A stretch of 64,000 nucleotides of DNA from Natrinema caseinilyticum. Its GTDB lineage: Archaea > Halobacteriota > Halobacteria > Halobacteriales > Natrialbaceae. Positions 45,367-54,983 of this stretch are shown one piece after another. Location: the NCBI RefSeq assembly GCF_024227435.1, contig NZ_CP100445.1:2477369-2541368 (forward strand), given 5' to 3'. Below the pieces are notes generated by a model that saw nothing but the letters and a program-made list of their open reading frames with translations, did no database searches and had not been told where the DNA came from. The number at the start of each line of letters is the position of its first letter. Within the stretch, counting starts at the first letter, position 1. The position numbers and the translations under genes are program-made.

Positions 45367-46008
45367 TCACTCCCCGACGGGCCCGTCGAGTTGCTCGAGG
45401 ACGGTCTCGGTCGTCACGACGTCGCCGTACTTCGCGTCGATGTCGAGGAGGTTCGCCCGGTGCGGCCCCTGCGCTCTGTCGCCGACGGCGTCGGCGGGCA
45501 CGATCGTGCGGTAGCCGTGTTGGAGGCTATCGACCGCCGTCGCGCGCACGCAGCCGCTCGTCGTCACGCCGGCGATGACGAGCGTATCGACGCGGTTCGT
45601 CGTCAGCTCCGATTGCAAGTCGGTGCCGAAGAAGGCGCTCGCGTACTTCTTGAGGACGACGCGTTCGCCCTCGAGCGGTGCGATTCGGTCGTCCACCTCG
45701 ACGCGTTCGGTGCCGAGTCGCAACTCCTTCAACGCGGGCACTTTTTCGACGAACCGCCCCGCGTCGCCGTACGATTCCTCGAACGCGACGGTCGTGAAGT
45801 ATCGCGGGAGATCGGACTCTCGAAACGCCTCGAGCAGGCGGTCGGTTTGCTCGAGGACGTCGGAGACGTCCGCCCCGAGGTTCGAGTCCGGGTCGGTGAA
45901 GGCGTTGATGAGGTCGATGACGATCAGCGCCGGTCGCTCTCCCATGCCGACTGTCTCGCCGAACTCCCGTTCGGCGTAGCGGTCTTCGGTGGCGTCGATC
46001 CAGTCCAT
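45367..46008 (-). CDS. isochorismatase-family hydrolase, N-carbamoylsarcosine-amidase-like
   Basis: A 213-residue cysteine hydrolase with the catalytic triad in VIDLINAF (Asp32), VLKKYASAFFGT (Lys120 or 121) and GVTTSGCVRATAVDS (Cys153). The N-terminal stretch FGETVGMGERPALIVID and the AFFGTDL loop are typical of the N-carbamoylsarcosine amidohydrolase/maleamate amidase branch. It follows hyuB on the same strand after 195 bp. N-carbamoylsarcosine is the product of N-methylhydantoinase (HyuAB type), so a shared ureide pathway is plausible, though unproven. Confidence 0.82.
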   Translation of the reverse strand: MDWIDATEDRYAEREFGETVGMGERPALIVIDLINAFTDPDSNLGADVSDVLEQTDRLLEAFRESDLPRYFTTVAFEESYGDAGRFVEKVPALKELRLGTERVEVDDRIAPLEGERVVLKKYASAFFGTDLQSELTTNRVDTLVIAGVTTSGCVRATAVDSLQHGYRTIVPADAVGDRAQGPHRANLLDIDAKYGDVVTTETVLEQLDGPVGE

Positions 46009-46088
46009 GTCTTGGCTCTCGGTGTGCTATCTGGTGCTCTGGTGTGCAACGTGCGGTACGGATCTGTATCAGCGGATTCGTGAGCGGT

Positions 46089-46150
46089 GGTTGCCGGGAC
46101 GTAGGTGGGTGGTGTTGGTGGTTGCCGGGACGTAGGTGGGTGGTGTTGGT
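46089..46150. repeat. 31-bp direct repeat, two copies
   Basis: The unit GGTTGCCGGGACGTAGGTGG plus GTGGTGTTGGT is present twice head-to-tail (46089-46119 and 46120-46150) between hyuB and the amidase gene. Confidence 0.85.
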
Positions 46151-46203
46151 GGCCGGCGGTGCGCAGGTGGTGAGAGGGGGTGTGTGAGCGCCCGATGGGC
46201 GGG

Positions 46204-48069
46204 TCAGTTGTGCCGGTCGTCGAACTCGCGGCGCTCCGCGGCGATCCGTTCGGCGAGGTCCTCCTCGTCCGGCAACGGGCCGTAGTCGAACTCCGCGAGG
46301 TCGTCGCGCTCCTCCCGAATCTCCGCGCGTCTGTCGTCGGTCGCGGCTTCGTCGACGGTTCCGTCGTCGATTACGACGCCGTACTCTTCGCGGGCGGCCG
46401 CGGTGGAGACGAGTCCCCGCCGGACCTCCGCGGCGACCAGTTCGGGAGCTCGCTCGAGCGGATCGCCCAGGCCGCCGCCGCCGGCGGTCCGGAAGACGAG
46501 TTTGTCGCCGGCGGAGACGGGAACGTTCTCGACCTTCGAGGGGAGTTCCTCCTCGGTCCCGTCGGTTCTGACGAGCTTCTTCTCGCTGGTTCGGGCGTGT
46601 TTCCCGCCGTCGACTCCCCACGGGTAGGTGTGGGCGCGGTCGTCCTGGAACGTGATCGCGCCGTCTTCTTCGAACGTGTAGACCTTCGTGATGCCGTGGC
46701 CGCCGCGGAACTCGCCGGCCCCGCCGGTGTCGGGACGCGTGCTGTACTCGTCGATGGTGAGCGGGTAGTAGGCCTCCTGATACTCCGCGGGCACGGTCCG
46801 GAACAGCGGCCACCAGGAGTGGCCGTCGAGGCCGTCGCCGCCGGGCCGGGCGGGGATGCCCCCGTAGAGGATCTCGAGCATCTGGAAGTCGTTGCCCTCG
46901 GAGTCGGTGCCGGCGTACACGAGGTTCGGCGAGGTCCCGTAGCTTCCCGCGACCGAGAAGCCGTCGATGAGCTTCGAGAAGGTCGCCTGCAGGACGTCGA
47001 ACTGGCGGGCCATCAGCGGCAGGCGGTTGCCCAGCGCGGCCGGGAACTCCGGCTGGACGACGCTCCCGTCGGGCAGGTTGACCTCGAAGAGGTCGTAGTA
47101 CCCGTCGTTGAACGTCAGCAGCGGGTCGAAGGCCATGATGAGGAAGACCCCGGTGAACATCTTGAACATCTTCTCGTTGAGCAGGAAGTTCACCGTCCCG
47201 GGAACCTGCGCGTCGGTCCCCTCCCAGTCGAGGTGGACGGTGTCCCCCTCGCGGTAGATCTCGAGGTGGAGCTTGATCGGGCCGTTGCCCATGCCGTCGT
47301 CGTCGACGTGGTCCTCGAAGGTGTAGCGCTCGCCTTCGGGCACGAACTCGCGGATGAGATCGATCATCCCGTCGCGGGTGCGATCGAGGATGGCGTCGCA
47401 GCCTTCCAGGTAGGTGTCCCTGCCGAACCGGTCGCAGAGTTCCTGCACGCGCGATTCGGCGACGGCGGTGCCGGCCGCGAGCGCCTTGATGTCCGCTTCC
47501 GCGTGCTCGGGCAGGCGCGTGTTGTGCGCGAACGTCTCTAAGAGTTCGCCGTCGAACGCGCCTTCCTTGTACAGCTTGACCGGGGGAAGACGCATTCCCT
47601 CCTCGAAGATGGTGGTGGCCTGGACGGGCATGCTGCCGGGCGTCTTCCCGCCGACGTCCATCAGGTTGCCCCACTGGCTGCCGAAGCCGACGAGTTCGTC
47701 GTCGTAAAAGATCGGGCGAAGCAACAGCATGTCCGGCGTGTGCGAAACCGCACCGGCGCACATGTAGGGGTCGTTCGTGGCGACGACGTCGCCGTCGTTC
47801 AGATCGTCCCAGCCGAACGGGGCGTTCTCGATGATCGTATCGATTGCGCTGCCGAACTGTCCCATGACCATCCGGCCCTGCGGGTCGGCGATCAGGGGGA
47901 ACTGGTCGGACTGCTCCCGGATGACCGGGCTGATCGCCGTCGTCTCCACGACGCGGTCCATCTCGTGGCGCGTGTTCGAGAGCGTGCTTTCGATGATGTC
48001 GAGGGTCGTCGCGTCGATGTCGTGGTCGCCCACGAAGTCGGGCGTCGCGTCCGCCGTTTGCTGGCTCAT
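46204..48069 (-). CDS. hyuB: hydantoinase B/oxoprolinase family protein
   Basis: A 621-residue HyuB-type subunit: DVVETTAISPVIREQSDQFP-like start (RVVETTAISPVIREQSDQFP), NDPYMCAGAVSHTPDMLLLR, LEGCDAILDRTRDGMIDLIR and the C-terminal GGGGLGDPLERAPE. With HyuA it forms ATP-dependent ring-opening enzymes for hydantoins or 5-oxoproline, or carboxylases of the acetone/acetophenone type. The start overlaps the hyuA stop by 4 bp. Length is slightly above the family average because of an acidic C-terminal extension (about 560-621). Confidence 0.9.
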   Translation of the reverse strand: MSQQTADATPDFVGDHDIDATTLDIIESTLSNTRHEMDRVVETTAISPVIREQSDQFPLIADPQGRMVMGQFGSAIDTIIENAPFGWDDLNDGDVVATNDPYMCAGAVSHTPDMLLLRPIFYDDELVGFGSQWGNLMDVGGKTPGSMPVQATTIFEEGMRLPPVKLYKEGAFDGELLETFAHNTRLPEHAEADIKALAAGTAVAESRVQELCDRFGRDTYLEGCDAILDRTRDGMIDLIREFVPEGERYTFEDHVDDDGMGNGPIKLHLEIYREGDTVHLDWEGTDAQVPGTVNFLLNEKMFKMFTGVFLIMAFDPLLTFNDGYYDLFEVNLPDGSVVQPEFPAALGNRLPLMARQFDVLQATFSKLIDGFSVAGSYGTSPNLVYAGTDSEGNDFQMLEILYGGIPARPGGDGLDGHSWWPLFRTVPAEYQEAYYPLTIDEYSTRPDTGGAGEFRGGHGITKVYTFEEDGAITFQDDRAHTYPWGVDGGKHARTSEKKLVRTDGTEEELPSKVENVPVSAGDKLVFRTAGGGGLGDPLERAPELVAAEVRRGLVSTAAAREEYGVVIDDGTVDEAATDDRRAEIREERDDLAEFDYGPLPDEEDLAERIAAERREFDDRHN

Positions 48070-50129
48070 TTGGAATCACTCCGGTTGATCTCGAGGTTCG
48101 CGTACCGATCAACCGTCGCCGCGTGGTCGGGCTGGACGACGACGGTCGAGTCGTCGTCGGTGACGATCGCCGGCCCGTCGATCACGTTTCCGGGTCGTAA
48201 CCGCTCGCGGTCGTAGATCGCCGTCTCGCGGTACTCGTCGTCGAAGAAGACGTCCTGCGTCCCGACGCGGGCCTCGCTCGCGTCCTCGTCGCCGAGTTCG
48301 CTCTCTTCGAGCGTGACCCCCTGTAACGTTCCCTTGCCGATGACGCGGAGGTTCGCGATCTCGAGGGGCGCCTCGAGCGAGAAGCCGAAGCGCTGGTCGT
48401 GGCGGGCCTCGAAGTCATCTTTGATCTCAGCGATGCCGTCGTCGGTCCGGAGGTTCGTCGCGTCGATCGGGATGGACATCTGGACGTCCTGGCGGTAGTA
48501 CCGACAGTCCGCGTAGTACTCGAAGGCGTGGTCCTCGTCGGCGACGCCTTCGGACGCGAGCCAGTCCGCCGCTTCGTCTTTCAGCTCCCGGTAGGCGTCG
48601 TACACTTCCTCGCCGTCGACGTCCAGGTCCGTCTTCAGGTAGGTTTCGGAGAACTCGTTCTGGACGTCGCTGGTCAGGAAGCCGAACGCGCTCATGACGC
48701 CCGGTCCCGGCGGGACGATCAGGGGGTAGGCGTCCATCACGTCGGCCAGCGCGTTGGCGTGCATCGGGCCGGCGCCGCCGAAGGCGACGAGCCCGAAGTC
48801 GCGCGGATCGTAGCCGCGTTCGACGGAGACGACGCGGAGCGCACCGTACATGTTCTCGTTGACGATGTCGAGGATCGCCTGCGCGGCTTCCTCGACCGTG
48901 CTGTCGCGTTCGTCGGCGACCGTCTGTACTGCCTCGCGGGCCGCGTCGCGATCGAGGTCCATCTTTCCGCCGAGCCGGACGTTCGACGGAATTCTCCCGA
49001 GGGCGACGTTCGCGTCGGTCACGGTGGGTTCCTCGCCGCCCTGTCCGTAGCAGGCCGGCCCCGGATCGGCGCCGGCGCTCTCGGGCCCGACCTGGAGGGA
49101 CCCGGAGAGCTGGACGCGGGCGATCGATCCGCCTCCCGCGCCGACCGTGTTGACGTCGACGGCTCGAGACTTGAACTCCCGATACCCGACTTTCGTCTGG
49201 CGAGTCGTTTCGGGGCTGCCGTCCTCGACCAGCGAGACGTCGGTCGACGTGCCGCCCATGTCCAGCGTGAGCACGTCCGGGACGCCCTTCTTCTCGGCGA
49301 TGGTCGCGGCCCCGACGACGCCGCCCGACGGCCCCGACAGGGCGAGTTCGACCGGTCGATGCTTCGCGGCCTCGGAGCTCATCAGCCCGCCGTCGGAGCG
49401 GACGACGTTCATCGTCGCCGTCGAACCGGCGTCCTCGAGCGAGTCGTCGAGGTCGTCGAGGTAGTCGATGACCTGCGGCCGCGCGTAATCGTTGATGACC
49501 GTCGTCAGCGTCCGCTCGTATTCGCCGTATTCCGGGACGATCTCGGCGGAAATCGACACCGGAAGGTCGGGACACTCCTCCCGAATGACGTCGCGTACCT
49601 GGCGCTCGTGAGTCGGGTTCAGATACGAGTTCAACAGGGCGACGGTCAGCGACTCGACCCCCGAATCGGCGAGTTCCCGAACCGCGTCTCGAACCTCCGC
49701 CTCGTCGATCGGCTCCTGTTCGGTCCCGTCGGGCGAGGCGATCCGCCCGCCGACGCTTCGCGTGTCGACGAGGTCGGCCAGCGGCGCCGGTTTTTCCATG
49801 TCCATCCACCCGTAGAGCGGTCCCGGCGTCCACGCCCGTGCCAGGTGGAGGACGTCCTCGTGTCCCTCGCTCGTGAGGAGCCCCACTCGAGACCCGGTCT
49901 CCTCGAGCAACATATTGGTGACGACGGTCGTGCCGTGAAACAACAGGTTCAGGTCGCCGACGGTCGTGTCGGCTTTCTCCACGGCCTCCCCGACCCCGTC
50001 GATCACGCCCTCCGACGGATTCGCCGGCGTGGATAGCACCTTGTCGATCGTGAGTTCGTGGGTGTCCTCGTCGAAGACGATGACGTCAGTGAACGTTCCA
50101 CCCACGTCCACTCCTAGATTATGTGCCAT
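48066..50129 (-). CDS. hyuA: hydantoinase A/oxoprolinase family protein
   Basis: A 687-residue HyuA subunit with the ATP-binding start GVDVGGTFTDVIVFDEDTHE, HGTTVVTNMLLEETGSRVGL, the second phosphate motif LTLDMGGTSTDVSLVEDG and GAGGGSIARV. It is the nucleotide-binding half of the HyuAB enzyme. The promoter should lie in 50130-50180, where CTATGTATATGG (minus strand) is a TATA candidate. It is divergent from the CoA-transferase gene. Confidence 0.92.
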   Translation of the reverse strand: MAHNLGVDVGGTFTDVIVFDEDTHELTIDKVLSTPANPSEGVIDGVGEAVEKADTTVGDLNLLFHGTTVVTNMLLEETGSRVGLLTSEGHEDVLHLARAWTPGPLYGWMDMEKPAPLADLVDTRSVGGRIASPDGTEQEPIDEAEVRDAVRELADSGVESLTVALLNSYLNPTHERQVRDVIREECPDLPVSISAEIVPEYGEYERTLTTVINDYARPQVIDYLDDLDDSLEDAGSTATMNVVRSDGGLMSSEAAKHRPVELALSGPSGGVVGAATIAEKKGVPDVLTLDMGGTSTDVSLVEDGSPETTRQTKVGYREFKSRAVDVNTVGAGGGSIARVQLSGSLQVGPESAGADPGPACYGQGGEEPTVTDANVALGRIPSNVRLGGKMDLDRDAAREAVQTVADERDSTVEEAAQAILDIVNENMYGALRVVSVERGYDPRDFGLVAFGGAGPMHANALADVMDAYPLIVPPGPGVMSAFGFLTSDVQNEFSETYLKTDLDVDGEEVYDAYRELKDEAADWLASEGVADEDHAFEYYADCRYYRQDVQMSIPIDATNLRTDDGIAEIKDDFEARHDQRFGFSLEAPLEIANLRVIGKGTLQGVTLEESELGDEDASEARVGTQDVFFDDEYRETAIYDRERLRPGNVIDGPAIVTDDDSTVVVQPDHAATVDRYANLEINRSDSK

Positions 50130-50476
50130 ACGTTATCAACGTCCACCATATACATAGCTTCTCGAGTAAGCGTTCCCCCAACCAGTGAGGGTGGTTTATA
50201 TGTGGGTCCGCAAACGGGTGCTGCAGCCACTGTGGGCTGTTGATACCGGTGTCCCGGAACACATCGGACTCCTGGCCCGTCCGTCTCGAGCGCGGGTGCG
50301 ATCAGACAAGTATGGGTTCAACTCGACCGGTCGTGGGGCCGACTCGAGCGCACCAGCGACGGGCCGAACCGGATCGGTTCGCGTCCAGCGGTCGCCGCCG
50401 CCGGGCGCCCAGGTATATAAACGGCCTACACTGGGTGGAACAACTGTCTTTCGTCGTCGGAGTGTGGTACGGGGAA
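50130..50476. promoter_or_regulatory. divergent promoter region hyuA / CoA-transferase
   Basis: Minus-strand TATA candidate near 50145-50156 for hyuA, and plus-strand AGGTATATAAACGG near 50410-50422 for the CoA-transferase, leaving a leader of about 35-40 bp. CCGCAAACGGGTG at 50207-50219 is matched inversely by CACCCGTTTGCGG near 52892-52904, downstream of the plus-strand operon. No gene is seen in this gap. Confidence 0.5.
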
Positions 50477-51694
50477 ATGACGGCACGAGAACGAGCGGGT
50501 CCCCTCGACGGTCTCCGGGTTATCGACATGTCCGGGATGATAAGCGGGGCGTTCGCGACGACGATGATGGGCGACTTCGGCGCTGACGTCGTGATGATCG
50601 AACATCCGCGGACCGGCGATCCGATCCGGGAGTGGCCACAGAAGACCGAAGACGGGGAATCGTTGGCCTGGAAATCGCTCGGGCGAAACAAGCGGTGTAT
50701 CACGCTCGATCTCGGCTCGGAACGCGGTCGCGAGATCGCCCTCGTGCTGATCGAGGACGCCGACGTCGTCTTCGAGAACTTCCGTCCCGGCACGATGGAG
50801 CGGTGGGGCCTCGGCCCCGAGGACGTCCGCGCGGTCAACGAGGAAGCGATCATGGTTCGGCTATCGGGGTACGGACAGACCGGGCCGAAATCGCAGAAAC
50901 CGGGCTTCGGGACGGTGGCAGAGGGTATCTCCGGCTGGGCGCACGCGAACGGCTTCCCCGACCGCGAGCCGCTGTTGCCCCCGATCAGTCTCGCGGATCT
51001 GACCGCGGCTCAGTTCGCGATGCAGGCCACCATGATGGCGATCTTCGAGCGCGACGTCGGCCGCGGCGGGAGCGGCGAGGGGCAGGTGATCGACGTGTCC
51101 CTCACCGAACCACTCTGGCGGCTGTTCTTCGGCGAGGTCGAAGCCTACGACCGAATGGACCACGTTCGCGAACGGACCGGCAACCGTCACCCGAACACCG
51201 CGCCGCGAAACATCTACGAGACCGCCGACGGCTACATGACGATGTCCGCATCGAACCAGAAGATCTTCGAACGCGTCGCCGAGGCGATCGACAGACCCGA
51301 CCTGGTCGACGACCCGCGGTTCGCGGACAACGAAACCCGCGTCGAGAACTGCGAGCCGCTCGACGCCGAGATCGAAGCGTGGACGAAACAGCGCACCACC
51401 GCGGAGGCCATCGAGACCCTCGAGGCCCACGACGCGATCGTTGGCCCCGTCTACGACATGGCGGACATCTTCGACGACGAGCAGTTTCGGGCGCGCGATA
51501 GCATCGTCGAGGTCGAGGACCCGGACGTCGGGACGATCAAGACGTTCGCCCCGATCCCGAAGTTCTCGCGAACGCCGGGGGAAGTGGAGTTCCTCGGCCC
51601 GCAACACGGCGAGCACAACGAGGAAGTCTACCAGGGCGAACTCGGGATGTCGGCCGACGAGTACGCGGACCTGTCCGACGAGGGGATCATCTAG
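50477..51694 (+). CDS. CaiB/BaiF family (type III) CoA-transferase
   Basis: A 405-residue protein with the family signatures LDGLRVIDMSGMISGAFAT, NFRPGTMERWGLGPED, RLSGYGQTGP and GQVIDVSLTEPLWRLF (the catalytic Asp in IDVSL), plus HPNTAPRNIYETADGYMTM. These enzymes move CoA between carboxylic acids without free intermediates. The next gene begins with no spacing, so the two act together, perhaps activating an acid made or used by the LeuA-type enzyme. The acid is not identified. Confidence 0.92.
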   Translation: MTARERAGPLDGLRVIDMSGMISGAFATTMMGDFGADVVMIEHPRTGDPIREWPQKTEDGESLAWKSLGRNKRCITLDLGSERGREIALVLIEDADVVFENFRPGTMERWGLGPEDVRAVNEEAIMVRLSGYGQTGPKSQKPGFGTVAEGISGWAHANGFPDREPLLPPISLADLTAAQFAMQATMMAIFERDVGRGGSGEGQVIDVSLTEPLWRLFFGEVEAYDRMDHVRERTGNRHPNTAPRNIYETADGYMTMSASNQKIFERVAEAIDRPDLVDDPRFADNETRVENCEPLDAEIEAWTKQRTTAEAIETLEAHDAIVGPVYDMADIFDDEQFRARDSIVEVEDPDVGTIKTFAPIPKFSRTPGEVEFLGPQHGEHNEEVYQGELGMSADEYADLSDEGII

Positions 51695-52786
51695 ATGCAC
51701 TTGAACGACGTGACGCTCCGGGAAGGCGATCAGATGCCGGGGCGAGCGTACACCGCCGAGCAGAAGATCGAGTGCGTCCGCGCGCTCGACGACCTCGGCG
51801 TTCCGTTCGTCCAGCCGGCCTTCCCGGCGACCGGGGAGAAGGACCGAACCGTCGTCGCGGAACTGAGCGGCACGACCGACGCCGAAATCGTGGCGCTCGC
51901 GCGAGCGCTCGAGCGGGACATCGACGCGGCGGTCGATTCGGGCGCCGACGTCGTCGAAACGTTCGTCTCGGTCTCGGATCGCCACCTCGAGTACCTCCTC
52001 GAGATGTCCCGGGAGGAGATGCTGGCGATGCTGACCGATGCGGTCGATTACATCGCCGATCGTGGTGCGACGCCCCACGTCACGCTCGCGGACGCGTTCA
52101 GGACGGACCACGAGAAACTCGTCGACGTCTTCGATGCGATTCCGAACGTGCCGTTCGTCACCCTCGCGGACTCCGTCGGCGCGCGAACGCCGCAGACAGT
52201 CGCGTCGACGCTCGATCGGCTCGCCGAGGACGTCGACTTTTCGCGCGTCGGCGTCCACTTCCACGACGACATGGGTTGTGGGACGGCGAACGCGTTGGCG
52301 GCGTACCACGCAGGCGTCGCGAAAGCGGACGTCAGCGTCGCCTCGCTGGGCGAACGAGCGGGAAACAGCTCGCTCGAGGAGGTCGTCGTCGCCTGCGCCG
52401 TCGACCTCGGCGACGACCTCGGTATCCGCACGGACGAACTGATTCCGGTCTGCCGGTCCGTCCTCGAGACGCTCGGCGAGGAGTACGGCGACCGAAAGGC
52501 GGTCCTCGGCGGGGAGATATCCGAACACGAGTCGGGCATTCACACCGCGGCGATGCTCGGCGATCCCGCCACGCTCGAGCCGTTCGATCCCGCGGCGTTC
52601 GGCGGCGAGCGTCGACTCGTGTTCGGCGCGCCGACGGGGACCGACGGCGCACGGAAGCTCCTCGACCGGGCGGGAATCGAGGCCACCGACGAAACGATTT
52701 CCGCGTTCAAATCGACGCTCGCGGAACGCGGGCCCCTCGACCTGGACGAGGCGCTGGCGCTCGCGAGGAGCGAGTTCGGGGACTGA
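51695..52786 (+). CDS. LeuA-type DRE-TIM metallolyase/synthase
   Basis: A 363-residue TIM-barrel enzyme with the R-x-G-D-Q motif (TLREGDQMPG, residues 7-16), the metal-binding HFH pair (GVHFHDDMG, His188 and His190) and HESGIHTAA (279-287), which belongs to the isopropylmalate/homocitrate/citramalate synthase branch. It lacks the C-terminal regulatory domain of LeuA. It should condense or split an acyl-CoA and a 2-oxo acid. Directly downstream of the CoA-transferase and divergent from hyuAB, it is more likely catabolic than part of leucine synthesis. Confidence 0.85.
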   Translation: MHLNDVTLREGDQMPGRAYTAEQKIECVRALDDLGVPFVQPAFPATGEKDRTVVAELSGTTDAEIVALARALERDIDAAVDSGADVVETFVSVSDRHLEYLLEMSREEMLAMLTDAVDYIADRGATPHVTLADAFRTDHEKLVDVFDAIPNVPFVTLADSVGARTPQTVASTLDRLAEDVDFSRVGVHFHDDMGCGTANALAAYHAGVAKADVSVASLGERAGNSSLEEVVVACAVDLGDDLGIRTDELIPVCRSVLETLGEEYGDRKAVLGGEISEHESGIHTAAMLGDPATLEPFDPAAFGGERRLVFGAPTGTDGARKLLDRAGIEATDETISAFKSTLAERGPLDLDEALALARSEFGD

Positions 52787-53136: not shown

Positions 53137-54099
53137 ATGTCTGAGAGAGGTTCCGCTCGGAAGCCGGCGTCGTTCCGTCGAGCCGCGTCCGCAGTCGACG
53201 CACGAAAGGTCGCCGCGTTCGTCGCGCTCGCGTTCGGTCTCTCGTGGTCCGCAGCGGCCGTGTTGTATTTCGCCGGCGTCGAGTACGGCACGATTACGAG
53301 CACGGTGCTCGTGGTGGTCTTTTTCATGTGGGCGCCTGCGGCCGCCGCGGTCGCGGTCCAGCTGTGGTACGGGGAGCCGGTCCGTGCCGGCACTGGCCTG
53401 GTCTTGGGACGGCTCCGCTGGAGCGTGCTGGCGTGGCTCGCGCCGCTCGCACTCCTGGCCGCGACCGTCGGGGTCGGAGTGGCGCTCCCGGGCGTCTCGA
53501 TCACCACGGATTACGGCGCGTTCCTCGCCGAGCAGGGTTTCTCCGAGGAACAGATCGAGCAGTCGCTCGATGCCCTCGAGGCGCTCCCGGTTCCGCCACT
53601 CGTCCTGTTCGTGGTACAGGGGCTCGTCGCGGGGGTGACGATCAACGCGGTCGCGGCCCTCGGGGAGGAACTCGGCTGGCGCGGGTTGCTGTTGACGGAG
53701 CTCTCGCCGTTGGGGTTCTGGCAGCTCTCCGGTGTCACTGGTGTCGTCTGGGGACTCTGGCACGCGCCGATCATCCTCCAGGGCCACAACTTCCCGGCGG
53801 CTCCGATAGCGGGCGTCGTGACGATGACCGTCTGGACCATCGCCGCGTCACCGGTGTTCACGTATCTGACCGTCCGGGCGCGGTCCGTCCTCGCCGCCAC
53901 GTTCTTCCACGGGTCGTTCAACGCGGTCGGCTCGTTCTCGCTCGTCTACCTGACCGGCGCCGGCAACCTGCTGACCGCTGCCGTCGGGGTCGCCGGCATC
54001 GGCGCGGCGGTTCTGGCCGTCGTCGCGTGCGTCGTCCACGATCGGTACCTCGCCGCCGAGCAAATCACGACGGGCGAGCCGTTGTCTCCGTGGGCGTGA
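53137..54099 (+). CDS. CPBP-family intramembrane glutamic endopeptidase
   Basis: A 320-residue protein with about eight spans and the Abi/CPBP motifs: GEELGWRG (Glu177, Glu178 and Arg182), VVWGLWHAPI (His209) and TFFHGSFNA (third motif). The family includes CAAX-prenyl proteases and putative bacteriocin-immunity proteins. A soluble loop at 120-148 lies before the first motif. It starts at ATG 53137 after a region without close genes. Substrate unknown. Confidence 0.9.
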   Translation: MSERGSARKPASFRRAASAVDARKVAAFVALAFGLSWSAAAVLYFAGVEYGTITSTVLVVVFFMWAPAAAAVAVQLWYGEPVRAGTGLVLGRLRWSVLAWLAPLALLAATVGVGVALPGVSITTDYGAFLAEQGFSEEQIEQSLDALEALPVPPLVLFVVQGLVAGVTINAVAALGEELGWRGLLLTELSPLGFWQLSGVTGVVWGLWHAPIILQGHNFPAAPIAGVVTMTVWTIAASPVFTYLTVRARSVLAATFFHGSFNAVGSFSLVYLTGAGNLLTAAVGVAGIGAAVLAVVACVVHDRYLAAEQITTGEPLSPWA

Positions 54100-54326: not shown

Positions 54327-54983
54327 GTGACGGCCGGCCAGATGTTTCAAGCCGAAATTCACCTCCAGCAGGAGAAAGCGTGCGTGCTCAACGATTTTGC
54401 GGAGCACTTCGATACGTCGTTCGACGTCGTCATCGAGGAACTCCACGATCATCTCGTTACCTTCACTATCCGGGTCGACGACCCCCGACGCGAGTACCTC
54501 GAGTTCTTCAGGGATTCGGAACAGGTCGAGCACGTCGAACGACTCGACGAAGCCAGCTATCTCATTACGAAGACGTCGTGCGGGGCCTACTCCGCCGTCG
54601 ACCGGAACCACGGCGTTCTCCGGCGGCAGAGCCGCGTGCTCGCCGACCGACGCGTCTACACGGTCCTGTTCTTCCGTCGGGAGGACCTGCGGGCCATGAT
54701 CGACGATTTCAATCGGATCGGAACCGTCACTCTCGGAAAGCTCACCGAGTTCACGGAGTCGAAATCGATGCTCACGGACCGACAACTCGAGGTCGTCACG
54801 TGCGCCCTCGAGGAGGGATATTTCGAGTGGCCGCGACGGATCAGCAGCGAGGAACTCGCCGACGAGTTGGACATCAGCCGCACGACGGCGCTCGAGCACC
54901 TCCGCAAAGCGCAGTCGAAGCTCCTCACCAGCGCACTCGAGGAGAACGATCACCTGAACCCGCACGGCCCCGCCGAACGGTAG
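54327..54983 (+). CDS. bacterio-opsin-activator-type HTH-10 regulator
   Basis: A 218-residue protein from GTG 54327, about 26 bp after TTATTC; ATG 54342 is an alternative. The N-terminal 140 residues are the sensory region (FQAEIHLQQEKACVLNDFAE; VLFFRREDLRAMIDDFN). The C-terminal HTH_10 domain reads LTDRQLEVVTCALEEGYFEW, then ISSEELADELDISRTTALEH. Proteins of this group activate one or a few target genes in response to unknown signals. No nearby target is obvious. Confidence 0.88.
   Translation: MTAGQMFQAEIHLQQEKACVLNDFAEHFDTSFDVVIEELHDHLVTFTIRVDDPRREYLEFFRDSEQVEHVERLDEASYLITKTSCGAYSAVDRNHGVLRRQSRVLADRRVYTVLFFRREDLRAMIDDFNRIGTVTLGKLTEFTESKSMLTDRQLEVVTCALEEGYFEWPRRISSEELADELDISRTTALEHLRKAQSKLLTSALEENDHLNPHGPAER

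Follow-up and report, generated by a model that had tools for sequence, protein, structure and literature searches.

HyuAB-type proteins form two-subunit, ATP-dependent amidohydrolases such as N-methylhydantoinase and the caprolactamase CapAB, and IaaCE of anaerobic indoleacetate degradation is a precedent for a HyuAB-like enzyme that opens a nitrogen heterocycle within a catabolic cluster (PMC8453981). In the creatinine/N-methylhydantoin pathway the ATP-dependent hydantoinase is followed by a cysteine-hydrolase amidase, and another amidase of that superfamily, maleamate amidase, acts in nicotinate degradation after aromatic ring cleavage. The IaaCE step is followed by a class III CoA-transferase, and we know of neither a cysteine-hydrolase amidase nor a C-C lyase of the LeuA, HMG-CoA-lyase (HMGL) or isocitrate-lyase (ICL) kind in that cluster. 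CoA-transferases that precede an acyl-CoA C-C lyase are known for C5 dicarboxylates, in itaconate and citramalate degradation (PMC12290011). Here we analyse a cluster from the haloarchaeon Natrinema caseinilyticum, within a stretch of 64,000 nucleotides (the window; contig NZ_CP100445.1, positions 2,477,369 to 2,541,368), in which these individually known enzyme families are encoded side by side by hyuA, hyuB, an amidase gene, caiB and a LeuA-type gene. A search of the open-licence literature found no paper describing this combination of hydantoinase, isochorismatase, CoA-transferase and lyase, just as a first-pass annotation of the window had known of no such archaeal pathway; for cyclic imides it returned chemistry only, and for maleimides no microbial pathway.

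We rate the cluster as a catabolic unit not described before, whose lyase modules are interchangeable and whose bacterial versions have a swapped last enzyme. Its gene content, linkage, common promoter element and lyase replacement are shown at the level of sequence. With moderate confidence, we propose that it is a co-regulated unit for the catabolism of a small cyclic amide, in all likelihood an imide or lactam with a five-membered ring, through successive HyuAB, amidase, CaiB and LeuA steps.

Two divergent arms and their promoters

The minus strand carries hyuA (48066..50129), hyuB (46204..48069), which overlaps hyuA by 4 bp (48066-48069), and the amidase gene (45367..46008). On the plus strand, caiB (50477..51694) probably starts at the ATG at 50477, the mechanical open reading frame beginning further upstream, and is abutted directly (TAG followed by ATG) by the LeuA-type gene (51695..52786; 363 codons). 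All five genes, with the overlap and the abutment, had been placed correctly in the first-pass annotation, and each product scores well over its Pfam family gathering cut-off. The five-gene set it had proposed is a real unit, but a sixth conserved gene, the promoter element and the lyase replacement had escaped it. This sixth gene (54342..54983, plus strand) encodes an HTH_10 regulator of the bacterio-opsin-activator type. A gene for a CPBP (Rce1-like) protease (53137-54099) separates it from the LeuA-type gene in the window only; in close relatives no CPBP gene intervenes, and the distance from leuA to the regulator is no more than ~150 bp.

In the hyuA-caiB intergenic region of the window and six relatives, both genes are preceded by a TATA box with CACTGG(G/T)TGG at a constant distance after it. 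The window copies are TATAAACCACCCTCACTGGTTGG (50178..50200, minus strand), 5' of hyuA, and TATAAACGGCCTACACTGGGTGG (50416..50438, plus strand), 5' of caiB, with equal TATA-to-CACTGG spacing. The composite TATAAA-N7-CACTGG-NN-GG has two exact matches in the whole 4.77-Mb genome, at these two divergent promoters, and no one-mismatch matches. Since the motif was built from these very sites, its presence there is by construction; what counts as evidence is that it is absent elsewhere in the genome and that the relatives have it on both arms. An identical element on both arms supports the shared regulation of the two halves, for which the HTH_10 protein would be the obvious candidate regulator. 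In matching form the element was not found in the ICL-type loci described below nor in most loci of operon type.

Conservation and replacement of caiB-leuA in haloarchaea

Among 125 genomes of the family, 20 have an amidase orthologue (at least 77% identity), and 19 of these 20 neighbourhoods, the window included, keep hyuA-hyuB-amidase. In eight of the 19 (the window and L036-L042) caiB-leuA adjoins these genes, lying 4.6 kb off on the same strand in L040. The other 11 (L043-L053) lack caiB-leuA and have, directly after the amidase gene, a gene of the isocitrate-lyase/PEP-mutase family with the KRCGH lyase motif; the HTH_10 regulator accompanies both versions alike. The twentieth neighbourhood (L054) has the amidase gene with an NMT1-type ABC transporter, LeuC/LeuD and caiB-leuA, and is without hyuAB.

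The pattern extends to an order-wide sample of 293 genomes (amidase orthologues at E < 1e-90, LeuA orthologues at at least 64% identity). All 28 genomes with an amidase orthologue have hyuAB, and beside the amidase gene stands either caiB-leuA (18) or ICL (10), never both and never neither; the probability calculated for this exclusion takes the genomes as independent, although relatives are not. Conversely, 17 of the 18 genomes with a LeuA orthologue also have the amidase orthologue (Fisher P ~2e-19, relatedness ignored), and in 29 of 32 loci caiB abuts leuA, with -4 to +9 bp between them. In a FastTree tree built from hyuA+hyuB+amidase, the caiB-leuA version comes out as ancestral, and the number of changes to ICL is about two. 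In genomes of four other haloarchaeal families the six genes all point the same way and form one array, hyuA-hyuB-amidase-caiB-leuA-regulator, unlike the divergent halves of the window. In L089 and L092 the successive gaps in this array are -4, 29-39, -4, 0 and 74 bp, the amidase and caiB genes overlapping by 4 bp. The flanks outside this six-gene array show no conservation between families. As a control, 23 of 23 haloarchaeal loci of distant amidase paralogues (27-33% identity) are without any partner gene. Paralogous haloarchaeal amidases at 34-36% identity occur with caiB, HMGL and leuC-leuD but without hyuAB (L251, L252, L253), or beside hyuAB (L254).

Conservation of the neighbourhood, which the first-pass annotation had named as a check on its five-gene set, is borne out. 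The first observation that it had said would refute the set, independent occurrence of the halves in relatives, is also seen, as hyuAB-amidase without caiB-leuA in ICL-type genomes and as caiB-leuA without hyuAB in L086, L099 and others. This does not refute the linkage, because the ICL-type genomes have a different lyase in place of the half that they lack. Shared regulation, its second test, is supported. Short amidase remnants (66-79% identical, some with stop codons) were noted in L031 (G058:C35:7175-7399), G057:C62 and G093:C2, where the intact gene is absent, and suggest decay of the cluster in those relatives. An acetamidase/formamidase gene lies right after the ICL gene in Halorientalis marina (L134, 9698-12065), and Natronomonas pharaonis PL131 (L129, 17393-18624) has a gene for a formamidase at a distance of a few genes.

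The ring-opening enzyme and the amidase

HyuA, the ATP-binding subunit, has intact the ATP phosphate and adenosine motifs defined for ATP-dependent HyuAB amidohydrolases (PMC8453981), with DVGGTFTD at residue 8, DMGGT at 290 and GADPGP at 353. HyuB, the metal-site subunit, retains three of the four CapB metal ligands (D55, H110, D113); the CapB His124 position is Asn135, an Asn in all haloarchaeal copies examined and a Gln in the solved N-methylhydantoinase. The proteins have ATP motifs, Asp-His-Asp ligands and two-subunit layout in common with N-methylhydantoinase and CapAB (PMC8453981), but differ in the Asn at the fourth ligand position, in missing the equivalog cut-offs and in their partner genes. 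HyuA scores 472 bits against N-methylhydantoinase, 388 against the caprolactamase subunit CapA (6yra) and at most 314 against carboxylase subunits; HyuB likewise scores best against the two hydrolases and lower against carboxylases. The family also includes acetone and acetophenone carboxylases, and the first-pass annotation had mentioned that HyuAB might act as an ATP-dependent carboxylase; acting on a ketone, it would supply an oxo acid for CaiB and the LeuA-type enzyme to process. These hidden Markov model and PDB scores disfavour such a role, no extra carboxylase subunit is encoded beside the genes and the conserved amidase would be left unexplained, so that we consider it highly improbable. 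The genome has five HyuB-family genes (L001-L005), and other HyuAB functions are therefore present.

The amidase is a cysteine hydrolase of the isochorismatase superfamily (Isochorismatase domain), predicted to act on either a half-amide or a carbamoyl group, and its D32, K120, C153 triad aligns with that of N-carbamoylsarcosine amidase. Overall identity proved no guide to specificity (42% to N-carbamoylsarcosine amidase, 40% to maleamate amidase), while the active-site loops (F127, T150, S151, A156, P182, H183) match maleamate amidase over N-carbamoylsarcosine amidase. Superfamily, triad and loops are thus shared with maleamate amidase of nicotinate degradation, from which the present system differs in its upstream step, HyuAB rather than aromatic ring cleavage.

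The first-pass annotation had proposed a ureide pathway in which HyuAB opens the ring and the amidase removes the carbamoyl group. In its creatinine-type form, HyuAB would act on hydantoin or N-methylhydantoin, and caiB-leuA would be separate though co-expressed. The nearest solved HyuAB relative is indeed labelled N-methylhydantoinase, and the nearest amidase structures N-carbamoylsarcosine amidohydrolase. This step is weakened, however, because a route producing sarcosine has no need of C-C lyases or LeuCD-type hydratases, and these, with the CoA-transferase, are the conserved partners here, across domains, in contrast to the creatinine/N-methylhydantoin pathway. Moreover, caiB-leuA is replaced by ICL, not merely absent, and both the interchangeable C-C lyases behind an amidase and the resemblance of its loops to maleamate amidase argue against this reading. 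We regard a ureide route as unlikely.

The carbon-carbon step and the proposed route

CaiB (PF02515, 400 bits) has the features of a class III CoA-transferase of dicarboxylate type, with D174 in ADLTAAQ, assigned by motif, and a GNRH loop at 235; a GNxH loop has been described for the haloarchaeal mesaconate CoA-transferase (PMC5592240). The LeuA-type protein, a DRE-TIM metallolyase, keeps the metal-binding HxH (HFHDD, 188) and HESGIH (278), has REGDQ (9) in place of RDGEQ, lacks the regulatory domain and reaches 271.9 bits with the best curated synthase model, whose cut-off is 517. The catalytic Glu of LeuA enzymes was considered as a marker of lyase or synthase and does not discriminate, a paralogue in the genome also being without it.

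Lyases recurring beside the amidase are of four kinds, LeuA, HMG-CoA-lyase and citryl-CoA-lyase, all three with a CoA-transferase, and ICL. An ICL-type lyase needs no CoA. By the established chemistry of the four families, the reaction they can have in common is to split a 2-hydroxy dicarboxylate, either the free acid or its CoA ester; the Chloroflexus citramalate pair is another example of a CoA-transferase with a lyase. Near the amidase gene in 73 bacterial loci, on genome contigs picked by amidase similarity alone, are a CaiB-type CoA-transferase (37), hyuB (27), an HMG-CoA-lyase homologue (25, always with the CoA-transferase), LeuC (9) and ICL (6). Plasmid records show CoA-transferase, HMG-CoA lyase and amidase in Tistrella; amidase, CoA-transferase and citryl-CoA lyase in Sulfitobacter; and CoA-transferase, hyuA, hyuB and amidase in Rubrobacter. 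From the replacement by HMGL, citryl-CoA-lyase and ICL genes we infer that the LeuA-type enzyme runs in the retro-Claisen direction, as do HMG-CoA and citramalyl-CoA lyases. Unlike the itaconate/citramalate pairs (PMC12290011), the present set has a lyase candidate of LeuA type, and its acid would be supplied by the HyuAB-amidase pair.

Were the enzyme instead to condense an acyl-CoA with a 2-oxo acid, with CaiB activating the product, the set would be anabolic or chain-extending. The Claisen-subgroup motifs, closest profiles that are isopropylmalate and homocitrate synthases, and the annotation of some relatives as citramalate synthase agree with this. It accords poorly with the lyase genes in the equivalent place elsewhere, the missing regulatory domain and, in two relatives, adjacent TctABC carboxylate-transporter genes, and we give it little credence. 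LeuA-type homologues (55%) near genes for the TctABC tripartite tricarboxylate transporter and a distant CaiB, with no abutting caiB, were seen in L103 and L104.

In the catabolic route that we favour, HyuAB with ATP would convert the cyclic imide or lactam to a half-amide, which the cysteine hydrolase would split into a dicarboxylate and ammonia. An unsaturated dicarboxylate would be hydrated to a 2-hydroxy (malate-type) acid by a hydratase of LeuCD type; some relatives have genes for one alongside, and in the window genome biosynthetic LeuCD may supply it. CaiB would place CoA on the far carboxylate, and the LeuA-type enzyme would cleave the thioester to a 2-oxo acid and an acyl-CoA (e.g. 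pyruvate and acetyl- or propionyl-CoA). In ICL-type lineages a single enzyme would cleave the free acid, replacing CaiB and LeuA. The presence of LeuCD-type hydratases in several loci suggests that the precursor is an unsaturated cis-dicarboxylate, the product expected of a maleamate-type amidase, and the cyclic imide or lactam for HyuAB, possibly an alkyl-maleimide or succinimide, is worked back from lyases, hydratases and amidase. The step order and substrate class are likewise inferred. The proposal in the first-pass annotation of one functional set is supported by the co-directional array and the promoter element, and its sequence from cyclic amide to acid, CoA ester and cleavage is plausible.

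Several points weigh against this route. The activities are predictions from sequence, and as none of the five proteins reaches any NCBIfam equivalog cut-off, homology does not define what exactly each of them does. HyuB departs from the full caprolactamase-type Asp-His-Asp-His tetrad, and the amidase sequence does not discriminate between an imide and a ureide route. The LeuA-type protein retains synthase (Claisen) subgroup features (HESGIH, HCS_D2 domain), so that the lyase direction rests on context. No dedicated hydratase is encoded in the window cluster, the genome having one LeuC, one aconitase and one split aconitase-family gene, and 25 of the 73 bacterial amidase loci, some on short contigs, are without any partner gene.

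The analysis predicts a testable nitrogen-heterocycle catabolic pathway for archaea and bacteria, with likely roles for many genes whose present names go no further than 'hydantoinase', 'isochorismatase family', 'CoA transferase' or 'citramalate synthase'. Within the LeuA family it points to an enzyme that would work in cleavage instead of synthesis, a step for which nature offers replacements to compare. Degradation products of tetrapyrroles (chlorophyll/heme) of the maleimide kind have been discussed (PMC7318184, PMC10343206), and alkyl-maleimides from this source are a possible substrate. A bolder version, which we put forward as speculative and rather doubtful, is a widespread, undescribed pathway for such alkyl-substituted cyclic imides, with a LeuA-family enzyme as dedicated acyl-CoA lyase and a cleavage step filled repeatedly by unrelated lyase families.

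The sampled bacterial hyuAB clusters have no common oxygenase or other first enzyme beside them, their neighbours being transporters and other proteins. An aromatic N-heterocycle pathway feeding this same amidase is possible at loci of the L169/L193/L216 type, although an NCBIfam search gave no name for the aromatic-looking pathway of L185/L193/L216-type loci. In L169, L193 and L216 (also L185 and L189) the amidase gene occurs with genes for an FAD monooxygenase, aldehyde dehydrogenases and an alpha/beta hydrolase, and in some of them also with a nitrilase-family gene, CoA-transferase, HMGL and LeuCD.

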